The translations under genes and the position numbers were made by a program. A stretch of 64,000 bases of DNA from Frigoribacterium sp. (lineage in GTDB: Bacteria; Actinomycetota; Actinomycetes; Actinomycetales; Microbacteriaceae), in contig JANYIZ010000004.1 of the NCBI GenBank assembly GCA_025408445.1, positions 1 to 64,000 of the forward strand, in the 5' to 3' direction. Every line of letters starts with the position of its first letter. The first letter of the stretch is position 1. Shown here piece after piece: positions 3,525 to 61,730 of this stretch. The notes under the pieces were generated by a model. The model was not told the origin of the DNA. It searched no databases and worked only from the letters and a program-made list of their open reading frames with translations.

Positions 3525-4735
3525 GAGCCGAGAAGGAGATCGGATTCGGCGGCGGTGGCGAGGTTGGCCGGGATTGCAGCGACGTAGCCGTCGAGGTTGC
3601 GCTTCGTCTCGACCACGGAGTCTCCGCCGAACTTCTCGAGCACGGCGTTTGCCAGTACGAGGGCGACCATGGCCTCGGCGACCACTCCGGCGGCAGGCAC
3701 AGCGCAGACATCCGATCGCTGATGGTGGGCCTCGCCCGCGGCGGAAGTGGCGATGTCGACCGTGCGGAGGGCGTGGGGCACCGTCGAGATCGGCTTCATC
3801 GCCGCGCGCACCCGCAAGACCGTTCCGGTACTCATGCCTCCCTCAGTTCCGCCGGCACGATCGCTCGAACGGGTGATCCCGTCGACGCTCTGGAACAGTT
3901 CGTCGTGAGCCTCTGACCCGCGTCGCGTCGCGGTGAGGAATCCATCTCCGAGTTCGACGCCCTTGATGGCCTGAATACCCATGAGCGCAGCCGCGAGCTG
4001 GGAGTCGAGCCGCCGATCCCAGTGCGTGTAGGAGCCGAGCCCGGGAGGCAGTCCGTAGGCGAGCACCTCGACGACACCACCGAGGGTGTCGCCATCCTCG
4101 TGTGCGGCATCCACCTCGGCCACCATGAGCGCGGAGGTCGCGGGGTCGAAGCAGCGCAGGGGGTCGGCGTCCAGCGCAGCCACATCCCCGATACCGGGAA
4201 GGGCCGATGCGTCAGGAACCCGCGTCGCTCCGATCGAGAGGGTGTGCGACAGCAAGTGGATGCCGAGCTCACTGAGGAACGCCCGGGCAACGGCACCGAG
4301 CGCGACCCGTGCCGCAGTCTCCCGGGCACTCGCCCGCTCGAGCACATTCCGAGACTCCTCGAAGCCGTACTTTTGCATCCCGACAAGATCAGCATGACCG
4401 GGCCGTGGACGGGTGAGCGGCGCACCACGCCCCTTCGGCAGCGACAGGGGGTCCACCGGCTCGGCGCTCATCACCTCGACCCAGCGCGGCCACTCGGTAT
4501 TGCCGATCCGCAGCGCGACCGGGCTCCCCATCGACAGTCCGAAGCGGATGCCGCCACTGATTGTCAGCGCGTCCTGCTCGAACTTCTGGCGCGCTCCGCG
4601 CCCATAGCCGAGTGTTCGGCGGTGCAGGTCGGCCTGGATGGCGGCCATCGACACCGGCACTCCGGCCGGGAGACCCTCGAGAATAGCGATCAGTTCTGGG
4701 CCGTGCGATTCCCCTGCGGTCAACCATCGAAGCAT
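3521..4735 (-). CDS. aroC: Chorismate synthase
   Basis: A 404-aa protein that makes chorismate from EPSP with reduced FMN, the last shared step to aromatic amino acids. It begins [21 protein letters not shown], the family's first signature. It continues with [17 protein letters not shown], the [16 protein letters not shown] block and the [10 protein letters not shown] loop. The open frame extends 19 codons further upstream, but ATG 4735 is used because homologues start MLRWxTAGESHG. It is followed directly by aroK. A 113-bp stretch to aroE shows no gene. Confidence 0.97.
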
Positions 4736-56465: not shown

Positions 56466-58928
56466 ATGACTACTCCCGAAATCCCCACCGCAGAGCCCCG
56501 TGGGGAACGCATCGATATCGTCGACGTCTCCACCGAGATGGAGGGGTCGTTCCTCGAATACGCGTACTCCGTGATCTACTCCCGGGCCCTTCCGGACGCA
56601 CGCGACGGCCTGAAGCCAGTGCAGCGTCGCATCCTCTACCAGATGACCGAAATGGGCTTGCGCCCCGATCGTGGGCATGTCAAGTCGGCGCGGGTCACCG
56701 GCGAAGTCATGGGCAAGCTGCATCCGCACGGCGATGCTTCGATCTACGACGCGATGGTGAGGCTCGCCCAGAGCTTCATCCTGCGTGTTCCGCTGATCGA
56801 TGGGCATGGCAACTTCGGCACCCTGGACGACGGGCCGGCTGCGCCGCGCTACACCGAAGCCCGCCTTACCGCCGCCGCAATGGCCATGACCGAGGACCTC
56901 GACGAAGACGTGGTCAACTTCGTGCCCAACTATGATAATCAGTTGACCCAACCGGAGGTGCTGCCGTCGGCCTTCCCCAATCTGCTGGTCAACGGCGCAT
57001 CCGGAATCGCAGTCGGTATGGCGACCAACATGGCACCGCACAACCTCATCGAGGTCGTGGGCGCAGCACGACACCTGATTGCGCACCCGGACGCCTCGCT
57101 CGACGACCTCATGTCGTTCGTGCCCGGCCCCGACTTGCCGACCGGAGGCACGATCATCGGCCTCTCCGGAATCCGCGACGCCTACGAGACGGGGCGCGGC
57201 AGTTTTCGCACTCGGGCGCGAGTATCCGTCGAGAACATCACCACACGCAAGGCAGGACTCATCATCACCGAGCTGCCCTACATGGTCGGCGCGGAGAGGG
57301 TGATCGAGAAGATCAAGGACGGAGTCAACTCCAAGAAGCTCAACGGCATCTCGGATGTCACGGACCTTACCGACCGAAAACACGGCCTGCGCCTCGTGGT
57401 GGGCATCAAGACCGGATTCAGCCCGGATGCCGTGCTCGAGCAGCTCTATCGCTTCACCCCGCTCGAGGATTCGTTCAACATTAACAACGTCGCCCTCGTG
57501 GATGGAGGGCCGAAGACTCTTGGCCTTCGTGAACTGCTTCAGGTCTATGTCGACCACCGCATCTCCGTCGTCACCAGACGCAGCCAGTTCCGCCTGGCGC
57601 GCAAGAACGAGCGGCTGCATCTCGTCGAAGGCCTGCTCGTGGCCATCCTCGATATCGACGAGGTAATCCAGGTGATCCGCGCGAGCGATGACGGCGAGCA
57701 GGCCCGAGTGCGGCTGATGGATGTCTTCGACCTCAGCCAGATCCAGGCCGAGTACATCCTCGAACTGCGATTGCGTCGACTCACCAAATTCTCTCGAATC
57801 GAACTCGAGGCGGAGCGCGACCAATTGCTCGCCGAGATCGCGGCCCTTGAACAACTGCTCACCGGCCCAGAGCGCGTGCGCCAGCTGGTCTCCGACGAGC
57901 TGGAGGAGGTCTCCGAGCGCTTCGGTACCCCACGCCGCACACTTCTCACCGAGGCGCGACCGCCGGTCGGGACAACAGTCGCCGCCCGGGCTGCCGCGGC
58001 CGTGCTGGAGATCGCGGACACGCCCTGCCTGGTGTTCCTGTCGACGACCGGGCGGGCCATCCGTGTCGACCTGTTCGATGGTGCCTCGGAGTTGCCGGAG
58101 CGCGCTGCCCGGCGCACCAAGCACGATGCGATCCTGTCGTCGATCGTGACGACCAGCCGGTCAGAGATCGGCGCGGTCACTTCGCTCGGGCGGCTCATCC
58201 GTCTCACGCCTGTCGACCTGCCGGTCGTACCGGAGAACTCGATCCAGCTCGCCGCAGGCACGCGGATCTCGGACTACCTCGCAATCGACGCCAAGAAGGA
58301 ACGGGTGCTCGCGCTTGTCTCGCTCACATCCTCTGACGCGATCGCTATCGGTACCCGGCAGGGCGTGGTCAAGCGGGTAACTCCCGGAGACTGGGCCAAC
58401 CGGCCCGAGTTCGAGCTGATCGCGCTGAAGCCGGGGGACGCGGTGGTTGGGGCGCGCCAGTCCGCGGAGACGGATGATTTGCTCTTCATCACCTCGGAGG
58501 CGCAACTCCTGCATTTTCCCGCATCGACGGTGAGACCGCAGGGGCGCTCCGCCGGTGGAATGGCTGGCATCAATCTTGGCGCAAAGGCCACCGTAATCTT
58601 CTTCGGCTCGGTCGACCCCACAGCCGAGGTCGCCGTCGCGACAGTGTCGAGCAGCAGCGCGACTATCGCCGGGATGGACTCCGGACGGGCGAAGGTCTCG
58701 ATGCTGTCCGAGTTCCCTGGCAAGGGGCGGGCGACCGGTGGTGTGCGAGCCCACGCCTTTCTCAGAGGCGAAGATATGCTCTCCGTGGCGTGGGCAGGGC
58801 CGTCCCCAGCGCTCGCTGTGGGAACTGATGGCGGGGTGCGGACTCTTCCGGATGCCGGTGCCAAGCGCGACGCATCGGGCACGCCGCTCGAGAGTATCGT
58901 CGAGTCGATCGGCGCCCCGATCCGTTGA
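56466..58928 (+). CDS. parC: DNA topoisomerase (gyrase/topo IV) subunit A
   Basis: An 820-aa type IIA topoisomerase A subunit. The breakage-reunion domain begins EGSFLEYAYSVIYSRALPDARDGLKPVQRR and has the quinolone-pocket KLHPHGDASIYDAMVRL. The catalytic tyrosine is in AAPRYTEARLT (Tyr129). The C-terminal DNA-wrapping part shows several GyrA-like repeats (for example GTRQGVVKRVTPGDW). The encoded protein sits with parE in this block, convergently; whether it is a true topo IV or a second gyrase-like pair cannot be told from sequence alone. Confidence 0.93.
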   Translation: MTTPEIPTAEPRGERIDIVDVSTEMEGSFLEYAYSVIYSRALPDARDGLKPVQRRILYQMTEMGLRPDRGHVKSARVTGEVMGKLHPHGDASIYDAMVRLAQSFILRVPLIDGHGNFGTLDDGPAAPRYTEARLTAAAMAMTEDLDEDVVNFVPNYDNQLTQPEVLPSAFPNLLVNGASGIAVGMATNMAPHNLIEVVGAARHLIAHPDASLDDLMSFVPGPDLPTGGTIIGLSGIRDAYETGRGSFRTRARVSVENITTRKAGLIITELPYMVGAERVIEKIKDGVNSKKLNGISDVTDLTDRKHGLRLVVGIKTGFSPDAVLEQLYRFTPLEDSFNINNVALVDGGPKTLGLRELLQVYVDHRISVVTRRSQFRLARKNERLHLVEGLLVAILDIDEVIQVIRASDDGEQARVRLMDVFDLSQIQAEYILELRLRRLTKFSRIELEAERDQLLAEIAALEQLLTGPERVRQLVSDELEEVSERFGTPRRTLLTEARPPVGTTVAARAAAAVLEIADTPCLVFLSTTGRAIRVDLFDGASELPERAARRTKHDAILSSIVTTSRSEIGAVTSLGRLIRLTPVDLPVVPENSIQLAAGTRISDYLAIDAKKERVLALVSLTSSDAIAIGTRQGVVKRVTPGDWANRPEFELIALKPGDAVVGARQSAETDDLLFITSEAQLLHFPASTVRPQGRSAGGMAGINLGAKATVIFFGSVDPTAEVAVATVSSSSATIAGMDSGRAKVSMLSEFPGKGRATGGVRAHAFLRGEDMLSVAWAGPSPALAVGTDGGVRTLPDAGAKRDASGTPLESIVESIGAPIR

Positions 58929-58980
58929 GCGCTGCGTCGATCGTGACTTCCCGCGGTACGAACTCCGGTGCCGTCTCCTG

Positions 58981-59089
58981 CGCGAAATGCAGGACTCTGC
59001 GTGACAGGAGTGACGGGAGGGCCTCATCCGCAACACCCGTCACACCCGATCCTGCATTTCGAACAGGGCTGGATGCGCAACAGGGCTGC
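58981..59089. repeat. 109-bp direct repeat, copy 1, with nested inverted repeats
   Basis: Begins CGCGAAATGCAGGACTCTGC and is identical over 109 bp to the second copy. Outer inverted arms CGAAATGCAGGA (58983-58994) and TCCTGCATTTCG (59050-59061) and inner arms GTGACGGG (59010-59017) and CCCGTCAC (59036-59043) could fold into a two-step hairpin. It lies between convergent parC and parE. No coding potential is seen. Confidence 0.9.
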
Positions 59090-59184
59090 ACGCACAACCT
59101 GCTGGCGCGCTGAACACAGGTACGCACAACTGACTGACGCGCTGAACACAGGTAGGCACGACTGGCTGGTGCGGTGAACAGAGC
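59090..59184. repeat. Three tandem ~32-nt imperfect repeats
   Basis: Units of 32, 32 and 31 nt at 59090-59121, 59122-59153 and 59154-59184 share the pattern CGCACAAC...CGCGCTGAACACAGGT with scattered changes. They lie between the two 109-bp repeats. No protein or RNA function is evident. Confidence 0.8.
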
Positions 59185-59186
59185 CG

Positions 59187-59295
59187 CGCGAAATGCAGGA
59201 CTCTGCGTGACAGGAGTGACGGGAGGGCCTCATCCGCAACACCCGTCACACCCGATCCTGCATTTCGAACAGGGCTGGATGCGCAACAGGGCTGC
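59187..59295. repeat. 109-bp direct repeat, copy 2
   Basis: A perfect copy of the repeat at 58981, offset by 206 bp. It contains the same outer arms (59189-59200 and 59256-59267) and inner arms (59216-59223 and 59242-59249). After it, CGCGCAACAGG-type fragments continue to about 59340, and the remaining 70 bp to the parE stop hold no gene. Confidence 0.9.
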
Positions 59296-59407
59296 GCGCA
59301 ACAGGTGCGGAAACCTGCACGCGCAACAGCGCCATCCGCTGGACAATCCGGTCTGCACACCGAATCGGGGGCCGATCGATTGGCAAGCCTTACGGATGCG
59401 TCGCCGG

Positions 59408-61507
59408 CTACACGTCGATGCGTTCGCGTGACAGCCCGTCCGACCCCGCAATGATGAAGTCCTTGCGGGGGGCGACATCGTTGCCCATGAGCAGCTCGAA
59501 TACTCGCTCGGCGTTGACAGCGTCGGTGATTTGCACGCGACGGAGCGTGCGGTGATGCCGGTCCATGGTGGTGGTTGCCAACTGGTCGGCATCCATCTCG
59601 CCGAGACCCTTGTAACGCTGGATCGGATCCTGGTAGTGCTTGTTCGCCTTCTTGAGTCCGGCGAGCACCCCGTTGAGCTCGGCTTCGGAATAGGTATAGA
59701 TCGTCTCATTCGGCTTCGTACCCGGATTCATCACGATCACCCGGTGCAGTGGCGGCACCGCGGCGTAGACGCGTCCGTCGCGGATCATGTCGGGCATGTA
59801 ACGGAAGAACAGAGTGAGCAGCAGCGTGCGAATGTGCGCGCCATCGACATCCGCATCGCTCATGATGATCACCTTGCCGTACCGCGCGGTCGCGAGGTCG
59901 AAGCTGCGACCGGAGCCGGCGCCAATCACCTGGATGATCGAGGCGCACTCGGCATTTCCGAGCATGTCCGACACGGTGGCCTTCTGCACGTTCAGGATCT
60001 TTCCCCGGATCGGGAGCAAGGCCTGGTATTCGCTGTCGCGGGCCAGCTTCGCCGTTCCGAGCGCCGAGTCGCCCTCCACGATGAAGAGCTCACTATTGGC
60101 GACATCCGAGCTTCGGCAGTCAACGAGCTTCGCCGGAAGGGACGAGTTCTCGAGGGCATTCTTGCGTCGCTGGGTTTCCTTGTGCGCGCGCGCCGAGATG
60201 CGGGACTTCATCTCCGCAACAATCTTGTCGAGCACGAGAGCCGACTGCGTCTTGTCGTCGCGCTTCGATGAGCCGAACTTCTCCGCCATGGTCTTTGCCA
60301 CCACTGCGGCGACCAGGTTTCGAACCGCGGGAGTTCCGAGTATCTCCTTCGTCTGCCCCTCAAACTGTGGCTCAGGAAGGCGCACGGTCAACACCGCCGT
60401 GAGGCCGGCAAGCACATCGTCCTTCTCGATCTTCTCGGTGCTGTTCGCGCCCGTACCGACCTTGAGCCGTCGCGCGTTCTGTTCGACCTGCGCGCGGAGA
60501 AACTTGAGCATTCCCGCTTCGAAACCGGCTTGGTGAGTGCCGCCCTTCGGGGTGGCGATGATATTCACGTAGCTTCGGAACACCGTCTCGTACCCGGTGC
60601 CCCAGCGGAGGGCAATATCGACCTCGCACTCGCGCTCAAGCTCGGTTGCGACCATGTGGCCCTTGTCGTCGAGCACGGGAACGGTCTCGTGGAACGTGCC
60701 GGAGCCGGTCATTCGCCAGGTCTCGGTGAGGGCACTGTCCGGGGCGAGGAAGTCGACGTACTCAGCGATGCCACCGTCGAAGCGAAACAGTTCATGGGTG
60801 GGCTCGGCGCCACGCTCGTCGGTGATGTCGATGCCGAGGCCACGCACCAGGAATGCGGTCTGACGCGCACGGGCCGCGAGCTCCTCCGTTTGGAAGGTCG
60901 TACCGCGGCTGAATATTTGCGGATCCGCCCAGTAGCGGATCCGGGTGCCGGTGACACCGCGAGCTACCTTGCCGACCGCGCGCAATTCGCTCTTGTTCTC
61001 GAACGGGGTGAACACCGCGTCCACTCTCGGCCCCTCGGCGGAGTCGGCAAAGATGCCGGGCTCACCACGGTGAAATGACATCGCCCAAGTCTTGCCATCG
61101 CGGTCAACTTCGACATCCAGGCGCTCTGAGAGAGCATTGACGACGGATGCACCGACGCCGTGCAAGCCCCCGGAGGCGCCATACGAACCGCTGCCGAACT
61201 TGCCGCCGGCGTGGAGTTTGGTGAACACCACCTCGACTCCAGAAAGTCCGGTTTTCGGCTCGATATCAACCGGAATACCCCGGGCGCGATCACGCACTTC
61301 TACACTGTTGTCATTGTGCAGGACGACGCTTATTTTGTCGCCGCTGCCTCCAAGCGCCTCGTCGACAGAATTGTCAATGATTTCCCACAGGCAATGCATC
61401 AGGCCCCGCGAGTCGGTGGATCCTATGTACATGCCGGGACGCTTGCGTACGGCCTCGAGTCCCTCGAGCACCGACAGGTGTCGTGCGGAATAGTCTGAGC
61501 TCGCCAC
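59408..61507 (-). CDS. parE: DNA topoisomerase (gyrase/topo IV) subunit B
   Basis: A 699-aa ATPase subunit. GHKL motifs are LWEIIDNSVDEALGG and GASGGLHGVGASVVNALS. The transducer region holds QTKEILGTPAVRNLVAAVV. The TOPRIM domain has ELFIVEGDSALGTAKLARDSEYQALLPIRGKILNVQKA and the metal-binding SDADVDGAHIRTLLLTLFFRYMP. The C-terminus includes RYKGLGEMDADQLATTTMD. The start GTG 61507 (VASSDYSARHLSVLEG) has AAGGAG six bases upstream. It faces parC convergently across the repeat region. Confidence 0.95.
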   Translation of the reverse strand: MASSDYSARHLSVLEGLEAVRKRPGMYIGSTDSRGLMHCLWEIIDNSVDEALGGSGDKISVVLHNDNSVEVRDRARGIPVDIEPKTGLSGVEVVFTKLHAGGKFGSGSYGASGGLHGVGASVVNALSERLDVEVDRDGKTWAMSFHRGEPGIFADSAEGPRVDAVFTPFENKSELRAVGKVARGVTGTRIRYWADPQIFSRGTTFQTEELAARARQTAFLVRGLGIDITDERGAEPTHELFRFDGGIAEYVDFLAPDSALTETWRMTGSGTFHETVPVLDDKGHMVATELERECEVDIALRWGTGYETVFRSYVNIIATPKGGTHQAGFEAGMLKFLRAQVEQNARRLKVGTGANSTEKIEKDDVLAGLTAVLTVRLPEPQFEGQTKEILGTPAVRNLVAAVVAKTMAEKFGSSKRDDKTQSALVLDKIVAEMKSRISARAHKETQRRKNALENSSLPAKLVDCRSSDVANSELFIVEGDSALGTAKLARDSEYQALLPIRGKILNVQKATVSDMLGNAECASIIQVIGAGSGRSFDLATARYGKVIIMSDADVDGAHIRTLLLTLFFRYMPDMIRDGRVYAAVPPLHRVIVMNPGTKPNETIYTYSEAELNGVLAGLKKANKHYQDPIQRYKGLGEMDADQLATTTMDRHHRTLRRVQITDAVNAERVFELLMGNDVAPRKDFIIAGSDGLSRERIDV

Positions 61508-61730
61508 GTGAATCTCCTTCGTGGCGCCGCCGTCATCGTCAGAGCAGGGAATGGTTGGTGGCCGGGCCGGGTTCAACACTAATGACAGCGGATGCGCTCG
61601 CCGGCATCCGACACCCCCACGACTGGGTGCGTACGCGTACAGCGAAATACGCAGGTTTTGTCTTCATGATTCAACACAGCCGTGTTTGTATAGGGAGAAC
61701 AAGTTATTGATAGGAAACGAGGAGCAACTC

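Follow-up and report, generated by a model that had tools for sequence, protein, structure and literature searches.

The two exact repeats between the convergent parC- and parE-like genes of Frigoribacterium sp., in the 64,000-nucleotide stretch of DNA that was analysed (the window), are probably two members of a dispersed family of short elements. As DNA sites, these would make up one half of a two-part system whose other half is the gene of a DUF559 nuclease, with predicted nuclease-driven copying or conversion of the elements. The family itself, the fixed or stepwise length of its units, their invariant ends, their location at gene 3′ ends, their bracketing of the nuclease gene and the joint change of ends and gene were observed directly. 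The link to a DUF559 nuclease is not foreseen in the earlier note on this DNA, which dealt with the repeat pair.

Self-comparison of the window revealed that positions 58980-59089 are identical to 59186-59295, with a single mismatch over 115 nt and a spacing of 206; the identical pair described in the earlier note is thus real, its exact length being 110 bp instead of 109 bp. The nested inverted arms reported there were found in each copy, 12 bp long for the outer ones (CGAAATGCAGGA/TCCTGCATTTCG) and 8 bp for the inner ones (GTGACGGG/CCCGTCAC), and gene coordinates and topoisomerase family matches agree in placing the pair between the convergent stops of parC (58928) and parE (59408). Side-by-side reading of the matches gave sharp borders to a 75-bp unit in each copy, AAATGCAGGA-N55-TCCTGCATTT, and the locus is composed of the following features:

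56466..58928, plus strand: left neighbour, a parC-like gene for topoisomerase subunit A (topoisomerase subunit family match)
58980..59089, no strand: repeat copy 1, the 75-bp unit with about 30 bp of right flank
58985..59059, no strand: element unit 1, 75 bp, arms extended by CG/CG to 58983-59061
58985..58994, plus strand: end half-site AAATGCAGGA of unit 1 (half-site search)
59000..59005, plus strand: YGTKAC, a box inside unit 1 that is conserved in the genus; unit 2 counterpart 59206-59211 (profile of 37 distinct 75-mers)
59015..59029, no strand: central dyad region of unit 1; unit 2 counterpart 59221-59235 (same profile)
59039..59044, minus strand: mirror internal box of unit 1; unit 2 counterpart 59245-59250 (same profile)
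59050..59059, minus strand: inverted end half-site AAATGCAGGA of unit 1 (half-site search)
59090..59185, plus strand: spacer separating the repeat copies, filled by three decaying tandem repeats of 32 bp
59186..59295, no strand: repeat copy 2, an exact 110-bp match to copy 1
59191..59265, no strand: element unit 2, also 75 bp and with the same sequence as unit 1, arms reaching 59189-59267
59191..59200, plus strand: end half-site of unit 2 (half-site search)
59256..59265, minus strand: inverted end half-site of unit 2 (half-site search)
59408..61579, minus strand: right neighbour, a parE-like gene for topoisomerase subunit B (topoisomerase subunit family match)

The pair is not a chance occurrence, because the sister genome G006 carries an orthologous pair at the same site with a spacing of 207 bp. 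The spacer in G006 consists of other short tandem repeats at nearly equal spacing. In two further genomes, G003 and G004, the parC-parE pair is missing and the gene stops lie a few tens of bases apart. Judging from these alignments, the pair is older than the split between the window species and G006, so that the suggestion of a recent duplication is not supported. That the pair is a recent duplication, or a duplication made by the assembly, of otherwise unremarkable sequence is extremely improbable: exact identity over 110 bp in a fragmented assembly (220 contigs, 89% complete) would fit this explanation, but the orthologous pair in G006 and the dispersal of the whole family speak against it. 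The exactness of the identity could still be partly an assembly effect, while the existence of the pair is backed by G006. Paired copies within one genome were identical at 75/75 and 68/75 positions, and most comparisons between the window genome and G006 gave 63–68/75; copies within each of these genomes are therefore at least as alike as copies across them, which suggests conversion, not recent duplication. The proposal of a small mobile element or of active homogenisation thus pointed in the right direction as regards dispersal and within-genome similarity, yet it has to accommodate a pair that predates the species split.

A search with the whole region against the window's own genome returned 32 matches, partial ones included, and the strict pattern, with a gap of 45–70 bases, gave 21 copies (22 at a slightly wider gap); the 38 half-sites GAAATGCAGGA in this genome are nearly all parts of units. 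The element is accordingly not unique to the parC-parE locus, and the condition named in the earlier note as refuting its reading, uniqueness to this locus, does not hold. Strict copies were also counted in G006 (26), G034 (17), G021 (7), G003 (4), and G001, G004 and G005 (one each). No unit was present in the remaining 52 of 60 genomes, and none of the 60 contained a match to the reversed control pattern. Even within the genus (G001, G004 and G006 are the genomes listed under the window's own one) the distribution is patchy, ranging from 26 copies to none. Scanning of 84,980 species genomes revealed at least 113 loci, mostly in Microbacteriaceae and in many genera of this family; the few matches outside it, including leucine tRNA-like stretches, look like chance. 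At least one strict unit was present in 34 of 398 Microbacteriaceae genomes and in 16 of 85 genera, with up to 43 copies and, again, patchily within genera. The parC/parE gap is just one among many sites, and nothing ties the element to topoisomerases, contrary to the idea of a role linked to these enzymes. Near-perfect long palindromes starting with AAATGCAGGATCG, of unrelated interior, were seen near contig ends in two ‘Thiohalomonas’ MAG contigs (L090 130-207 and L097 6303-6381); they may represent an element of another kind or have arisen in the assembly.

Units are preferentially located where genes end. Among 137 units with classifiable gaps, 68 lay in convergent, 49 in co-directional and 20 in divergent gaps, compared with 114 convergent gaps out of 762 in the background, and in 36 of the 49 co-directional cases the upstream stop is the nearer gene boundary. 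These placements are approximate, being based on a home-made retrained gene caller, and were counted without non-family loci and repeated sequences; of the 165 units considered, 12 lay inside called genes and 16 at contig edges. One unit-like match inside a called gene, L121 3671-3747, has a near-equal interior in three genomes (also in G418 and G305) and is either a chance match or an exapted site.

Positions of the units are largely conserved between species. A strict unit was found at the orthologous place in G006 for 17 of 18 unit loci of the window genome. In 28 aligned orthologous pairs (against G006, G003 and G005), the lengths were equal and the ends had no mismatch in 27, whereas the interiors differed at 307 of 1491 positions; the partner taken for each unit was the equal-length one at the orthologous locus that differed least from it, and the interior sum excludes one contig pair with 99.9% identity. 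Most copies are old, to judge from these alignments, and movement would be slow at best. At several loci, local extra copies are near unit-sized and have little in common beyond the unit itself, and no clear target-site duplication or empty site, nor any consistent duplication, was seen in the listed flanks. A 3.7-kb stretch of L016 (G000:C104, from the window genome) and L170 (G006:C149) is 99.87% identical with a common contig start, the two species otherwise being about 85–94% identical at these loci; this is likely cross-bin contamination of one assembly.

The total length of the units is also restricted. Among 183 distinct family units, counted without 18 loci from outside Microbacteriaceae, 154 measured 74–78 bp, 28 measured 87–88 bp and one measured 98 bp, the steps corresponding to about one helical turn. 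When half-sites were listed without imposed spacing in three genomes, nearly all of them were paired, 64–66 bp start to start. The interior is lineage-specific, with the YGTKAC boxes and the central dyad in the window genus and with CGACACGCCCG near one end in Homoserinibacter gongjuensis, and the outer arms vary between lineages yet remain mutually complementary. Note that the exact-match search patterns are biased toward copies with intact ends.

Single strands of the repeat copies fold far better than shuffled sequences (z of −5.4 and −5.6 as DNA, −5.4 and −7.5 as RNA), in line with the hairpin that had been proposed, but such folding says little about what the element is. Base-pair covariation in the interior was absent in four lineages, the pairs observed against those expected from column composition being 399/402.1, 179/187.8, 154/151.7 and 205/203.2, for copies less than 85% alike (37 reduced to 22 in the window genus). 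Without excess interior pairing, the symmetry resides in sequence boxes and not in a maintained stem, which makes the hairpin doubtful. A bidirectional terminator or 3′-end RNA hairpin conserved for RNA reasons would suit the convergent, 3′-end location and the strong predicted folding of single copies, but it is most improbable given the missing covariation, the patchiness within the genus (26 copies against none), the lack of any Rfam match in the window except tRNAs, and the count of zero intrinsic terminators (GC-rich stem and T run) in 58800-59500; this reading, and with it the suggested role in termination, was rejected on the covariation test and the terminator scan. Stepwise length, invariant ends and a fast-changing interior lacking covariation make the units look like phased sites in double-stranded DNA rather than RNA hairpins. 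Extra half-sites were noticed about 19–25, 32–33 and 43 bp outside units, recurring at unrelated loci:

H. gongjuensis, G060:C1:1437996, 1895064 and 1895205: extra half-site loci
Protaetiibacter, G063:C10:193761 and 193903, and C4:83649: extra half-site loci
window genome, G000:C34:16072: extra half-site locus

A special locus with four half-sites, considered from a comparison of H. gongjuensis with Protaetiibacter, was discarded when the compared loci proved unrelated.

A RAYT transposase was sought as the partner because REPINs have this kind of layout. The Y1 HUH domain (PF01797) was found in none of 11 element-bearing genomes and in one of 27 genomes overall, that one without elements, and a RAYT partner was rejected on its absence from 11/11 element-bearing genomes. 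Clustering of 555 unit-adjacent proteins revealed one family recurring across most lineages (six in the grouping; 11 proteins), at most 53 bp from a unit, the other recurrent neighbours being synteny neighbours of this DUF559 gene, ABC transporters, or families seen in fewer lineages. In the window genome, this gene lies outside the window:

G000 contig C103:4703-5557: partner gene, between two units and between citrate synthase (gltA) and dapD

A profile built from nine proteins detected homologues at E ≤ 1e-30 in 280 of 398 genomes, the top scores falling mostly in element-bearing ones, and the best homologues had units on both sides at similar distances. Top homologues without a nearby AAATGCAGGA (in G009, G400 and others) were bracketed by equal-sized inverted pairs with other ends. 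Under a rule demanding inverted arms of at least 9 bp, with 66–98 bp between their outer edges, at most 420 bp away on each side and with a common 7-mer, two-sided bracketing by units with common ends was found for 44 of 70 DUF559 genes against 0 of 666 controls (49 other window genes and 617 genes of other loci, none positive in either set); these 70 genes are the 30 best profile matches and 40 hand-picked further matches, not a random draw. At least one side of 67/70 genes carried an inverted pair. A AATGCAGG-flanked gene, assigned by eye, was present in 21 genomes, all 21 of which carry elements, while 13 of the other 377 genomes do. For 13 of the 34 genomes with a strict unit, no AATGCAGG-flanked gene was detected (for example, G098 and G312 with 14 units each and G081 with 11), two of them being partial cases: in G034, a fragment of the gene lies next to a unit where the contig ends, and in G169 the arrangement is one-sided. 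In plasmid and phage collections, only distant homologues were found (8 and 1 records, all below 60% identity). Overall, there is good support for a pairing between the element and the DUF559 gene. A further DUF559-like gene bracketed by AAATGCAGGA units, at 3572-3646 and 4763-4837 of L089 (Microbacteriaceae VKM Ac-2855), was seen in the control run.

The ends found included AAATGCAGGA, AAATGAAGGA, AAATCAAGG, TTGTGCAGGA and others, and the prediction tested was that a gene with another end type should be accompanied by dispersed copies with those ends in the same genome. For AAATGAAGGA, AAATCAAGG and TTGTGCAGGA, with flanking copies excluded, 13 of 16 predicted against 3 of 124 unpredicted genome-tests were positive (per end type, 4/5, 4/4 and 5/7 against 1/40, 0/41 and 2/43); the coordinates were inspected by eye to remove flanking copies, and the genomes to be tested were chosen after the flanks were known. 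Copies of AATGAAGGA numbered 18 in G009, 11 in G077, 4 in G115, one in G400, one in G136 (flanking) and 2, unpredicted, in G174, and were missing from the other 39 of 45 genomes; AATCAAGG was present in G397 (15), G221 (10), G106 (9) and G343 (7), and missing from the other 41 of 45. For TTGTGCAGGA, 13 copies were counted in G298, 8 each in G218 and G418, 7 in G335, 5 in G115 and one each, flanking, in G088 and G400, with unpredicted copies in G340 (3) and G002 (4, tandem arrays) and none in the other 41 of 50 genomes. Three of the 16 predicted genome-tests (G136, G400 and G088) gave flanking copies alone. Two populations can coexist: G077 has both AAATGCAGGA and AAATGAAGGA units, one of each at the sides of its gene, and H. 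gongjuensis (G418) has two genes, two end types (AAATGCAGGA and TTGTGCAGGA) and both populations. On a tree of 70 proteins, end types changed 13 times against a mean of 29.1 and a minimum of 25 in 500 shuffles, with labels given by eye to 51 of the 70 proteins (8 types) and the 19 with unique, mixed or unclear ends unlabelled. At the level of sequence, the end is thus shown to change together with the gene lineage.

MITEs and small bacterial repeats such as ERIC, BOX and RUP are short and dispersed and have inverted ends. The units could be non-autonomous copies of a present or former DNA transposon with these terminal repeats, the DUF559 gene being a passenger, and their inverted ends, intergenic sites, tens of copies and unit-sized local copies fit such an origin. 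We regard it as very improbable: the units differ from these repeats in their strict stepwise length combined with a free interior and in bracketing the gene as full pairs, not single ends; the end type follows the DUF559 lineage; and the listed flanks have no consistent target duplication. No autonomous transposon with these ends was seen in limited genome scanning.

The partner protein, of about 288 aa, combines an AbiEi-like winged helix at the N-terminus with a DUF559/I-Bth0305I-like nuclease at the C-terminus. DUF559 scored above the Pfam cut-off, and the AbiEi domain (AbiEi_4, PF13338) below its curated one (at most 20.4 bits against 25). The structure model had a mean pLDDT of 69.7, with values above 80 for the greater part of the final 90 residues, and Foldseek matched it to the I-Bth0305I catalytic domain (3r3p, E 1.2e-4), in agreement with the sequence search, and to AbiEi (6y8q, E 5.1e-4), the latter match being modest because the model is weak at about residues 55–130. 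Candidate catalytic residues (numbered as in the G265 protein) were E191, D217, E226 and D242 in 70/70 proteins, D228 in 67/70 and H233 in 68/70. I-Bth0305I reportedly forms dimers on a DNA target almost 60 bp long (PMC3943268); together with the DNA binding of AbiEi, this would suggest a dimer that spans the unit.

AbiEi, which also bends DNA, and Rv2827c each bind to inverted repeats within their own promoters (PMC7319586). The partner protein might be an AbiEi-type regulator, with the bracketing elements as autoregulatory operators, the dispersed ones as other sites affecting transcription near gene ends, and nuclease activity secondary or lost. This is unlikely in our estimation: the N-terminus does resemble AbiEi and the fixed, stepwise length points to a complex of protein and DNA in phase, but the elements prefer convergent gaps and lie nearer to stops than to starts, the bracketing includes the 3′ side of the gene, and catalytic-type residues are kept in 67–70 of 70 proteins. 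It is very improbable, too, that the elements mark self DNA or serve as decoys for an invader-directed nuclease; the protein weakly resembles DUF559-like and AbiEi models linked with defence, but no defence neighbourhood was seen at the 17 of 70 loci covered, the gene lying between gltA and dapD at 16 of them and beside gltA at the other one.

Of the short bacterial repeats that are linked to an enzyme encoded in single copy, those of REPIN-RAYT pairs are the best known. REPINs have two inverted conserved ends at constant distance, a variable spacer, an intergenic location, a partner gene flanked by its own elements and ends matched to the gene lineage (PMC3116915), and all these properties recur in the element described here. 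In contrast to REP ends, with their GTAG/CGTC tags (PMC3733652), the ends here have neither tetranucleotide; the partner is a DUF559/EDxHD-like nuclease, with no Y1 transposase in 11 element-bearing genomes; and the length steps and missing covariation point to double-stranded DNA. The system fails the defining tests of REPIN-RAYT and is therefore not classed with it; in outline, it appears to resemble REPIN-RAYT in its working, with unrelated parts. The EDxHD homing endonuclease I-Bth0305I appears to be similar in catalytic domain fold and sequence, but the DUF559 gene was not seen in an intron or intein, its protein has a winged-helix N-terminus, and tens of fixed-length dyad elements accompany it in the host genome. 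The AbiEi antitoxin family has the winged helix in common with it and differs in the C-terminal nuclease domain present here, the AbiEi_4 scores being below cut-off.

In the two-part system that we favour, the protein would bind both inverted ends as a dimer, with about six turns of duplex DNA keeping those ends in register, and the bound protein would nick or cut the element. Repair from another copy could then spread the element, convert neighbouring copies, with the identical pair at parC-parE as a result, and keep the ends uniform. Such nuclease-driven copying or conversion is the mechanism that we consider likeliest; in outline, it would also resemble the action of a homing endonuclease on its target, though enzyme and sites are unrelated. 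The chances seem evenly balanced that this is a second, independently evolved class of REPIN-like replicators, in which DUF559/EDxHD-like nucleases of Microbacteriaceae recognise, via the winged helix, the ends of their own fixed-length dyad elements in double-stranded DNA, spread and homogenise these elements by break-induced copying and co-diversify with them, two such pairs being able to coexist in one genome (G418). The partnership of repeat and nuclease looks like a previously undescribed one: among the matches listed in literature searches that left subscription journals mostly uncovered, none links DUF559 with dispersed palindromes or gives the end sequence in this role.

If this reading is true, a pair of like layout with unrelated parts would mean at least two separate origins for this way of life. 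DUF559/AbiEi-like proteins would gain a candidate DNA substrate, namely, the sequence bracketing each gene, and nature would thereby offer a series of nucleases whose target ends are both diversified and readable.
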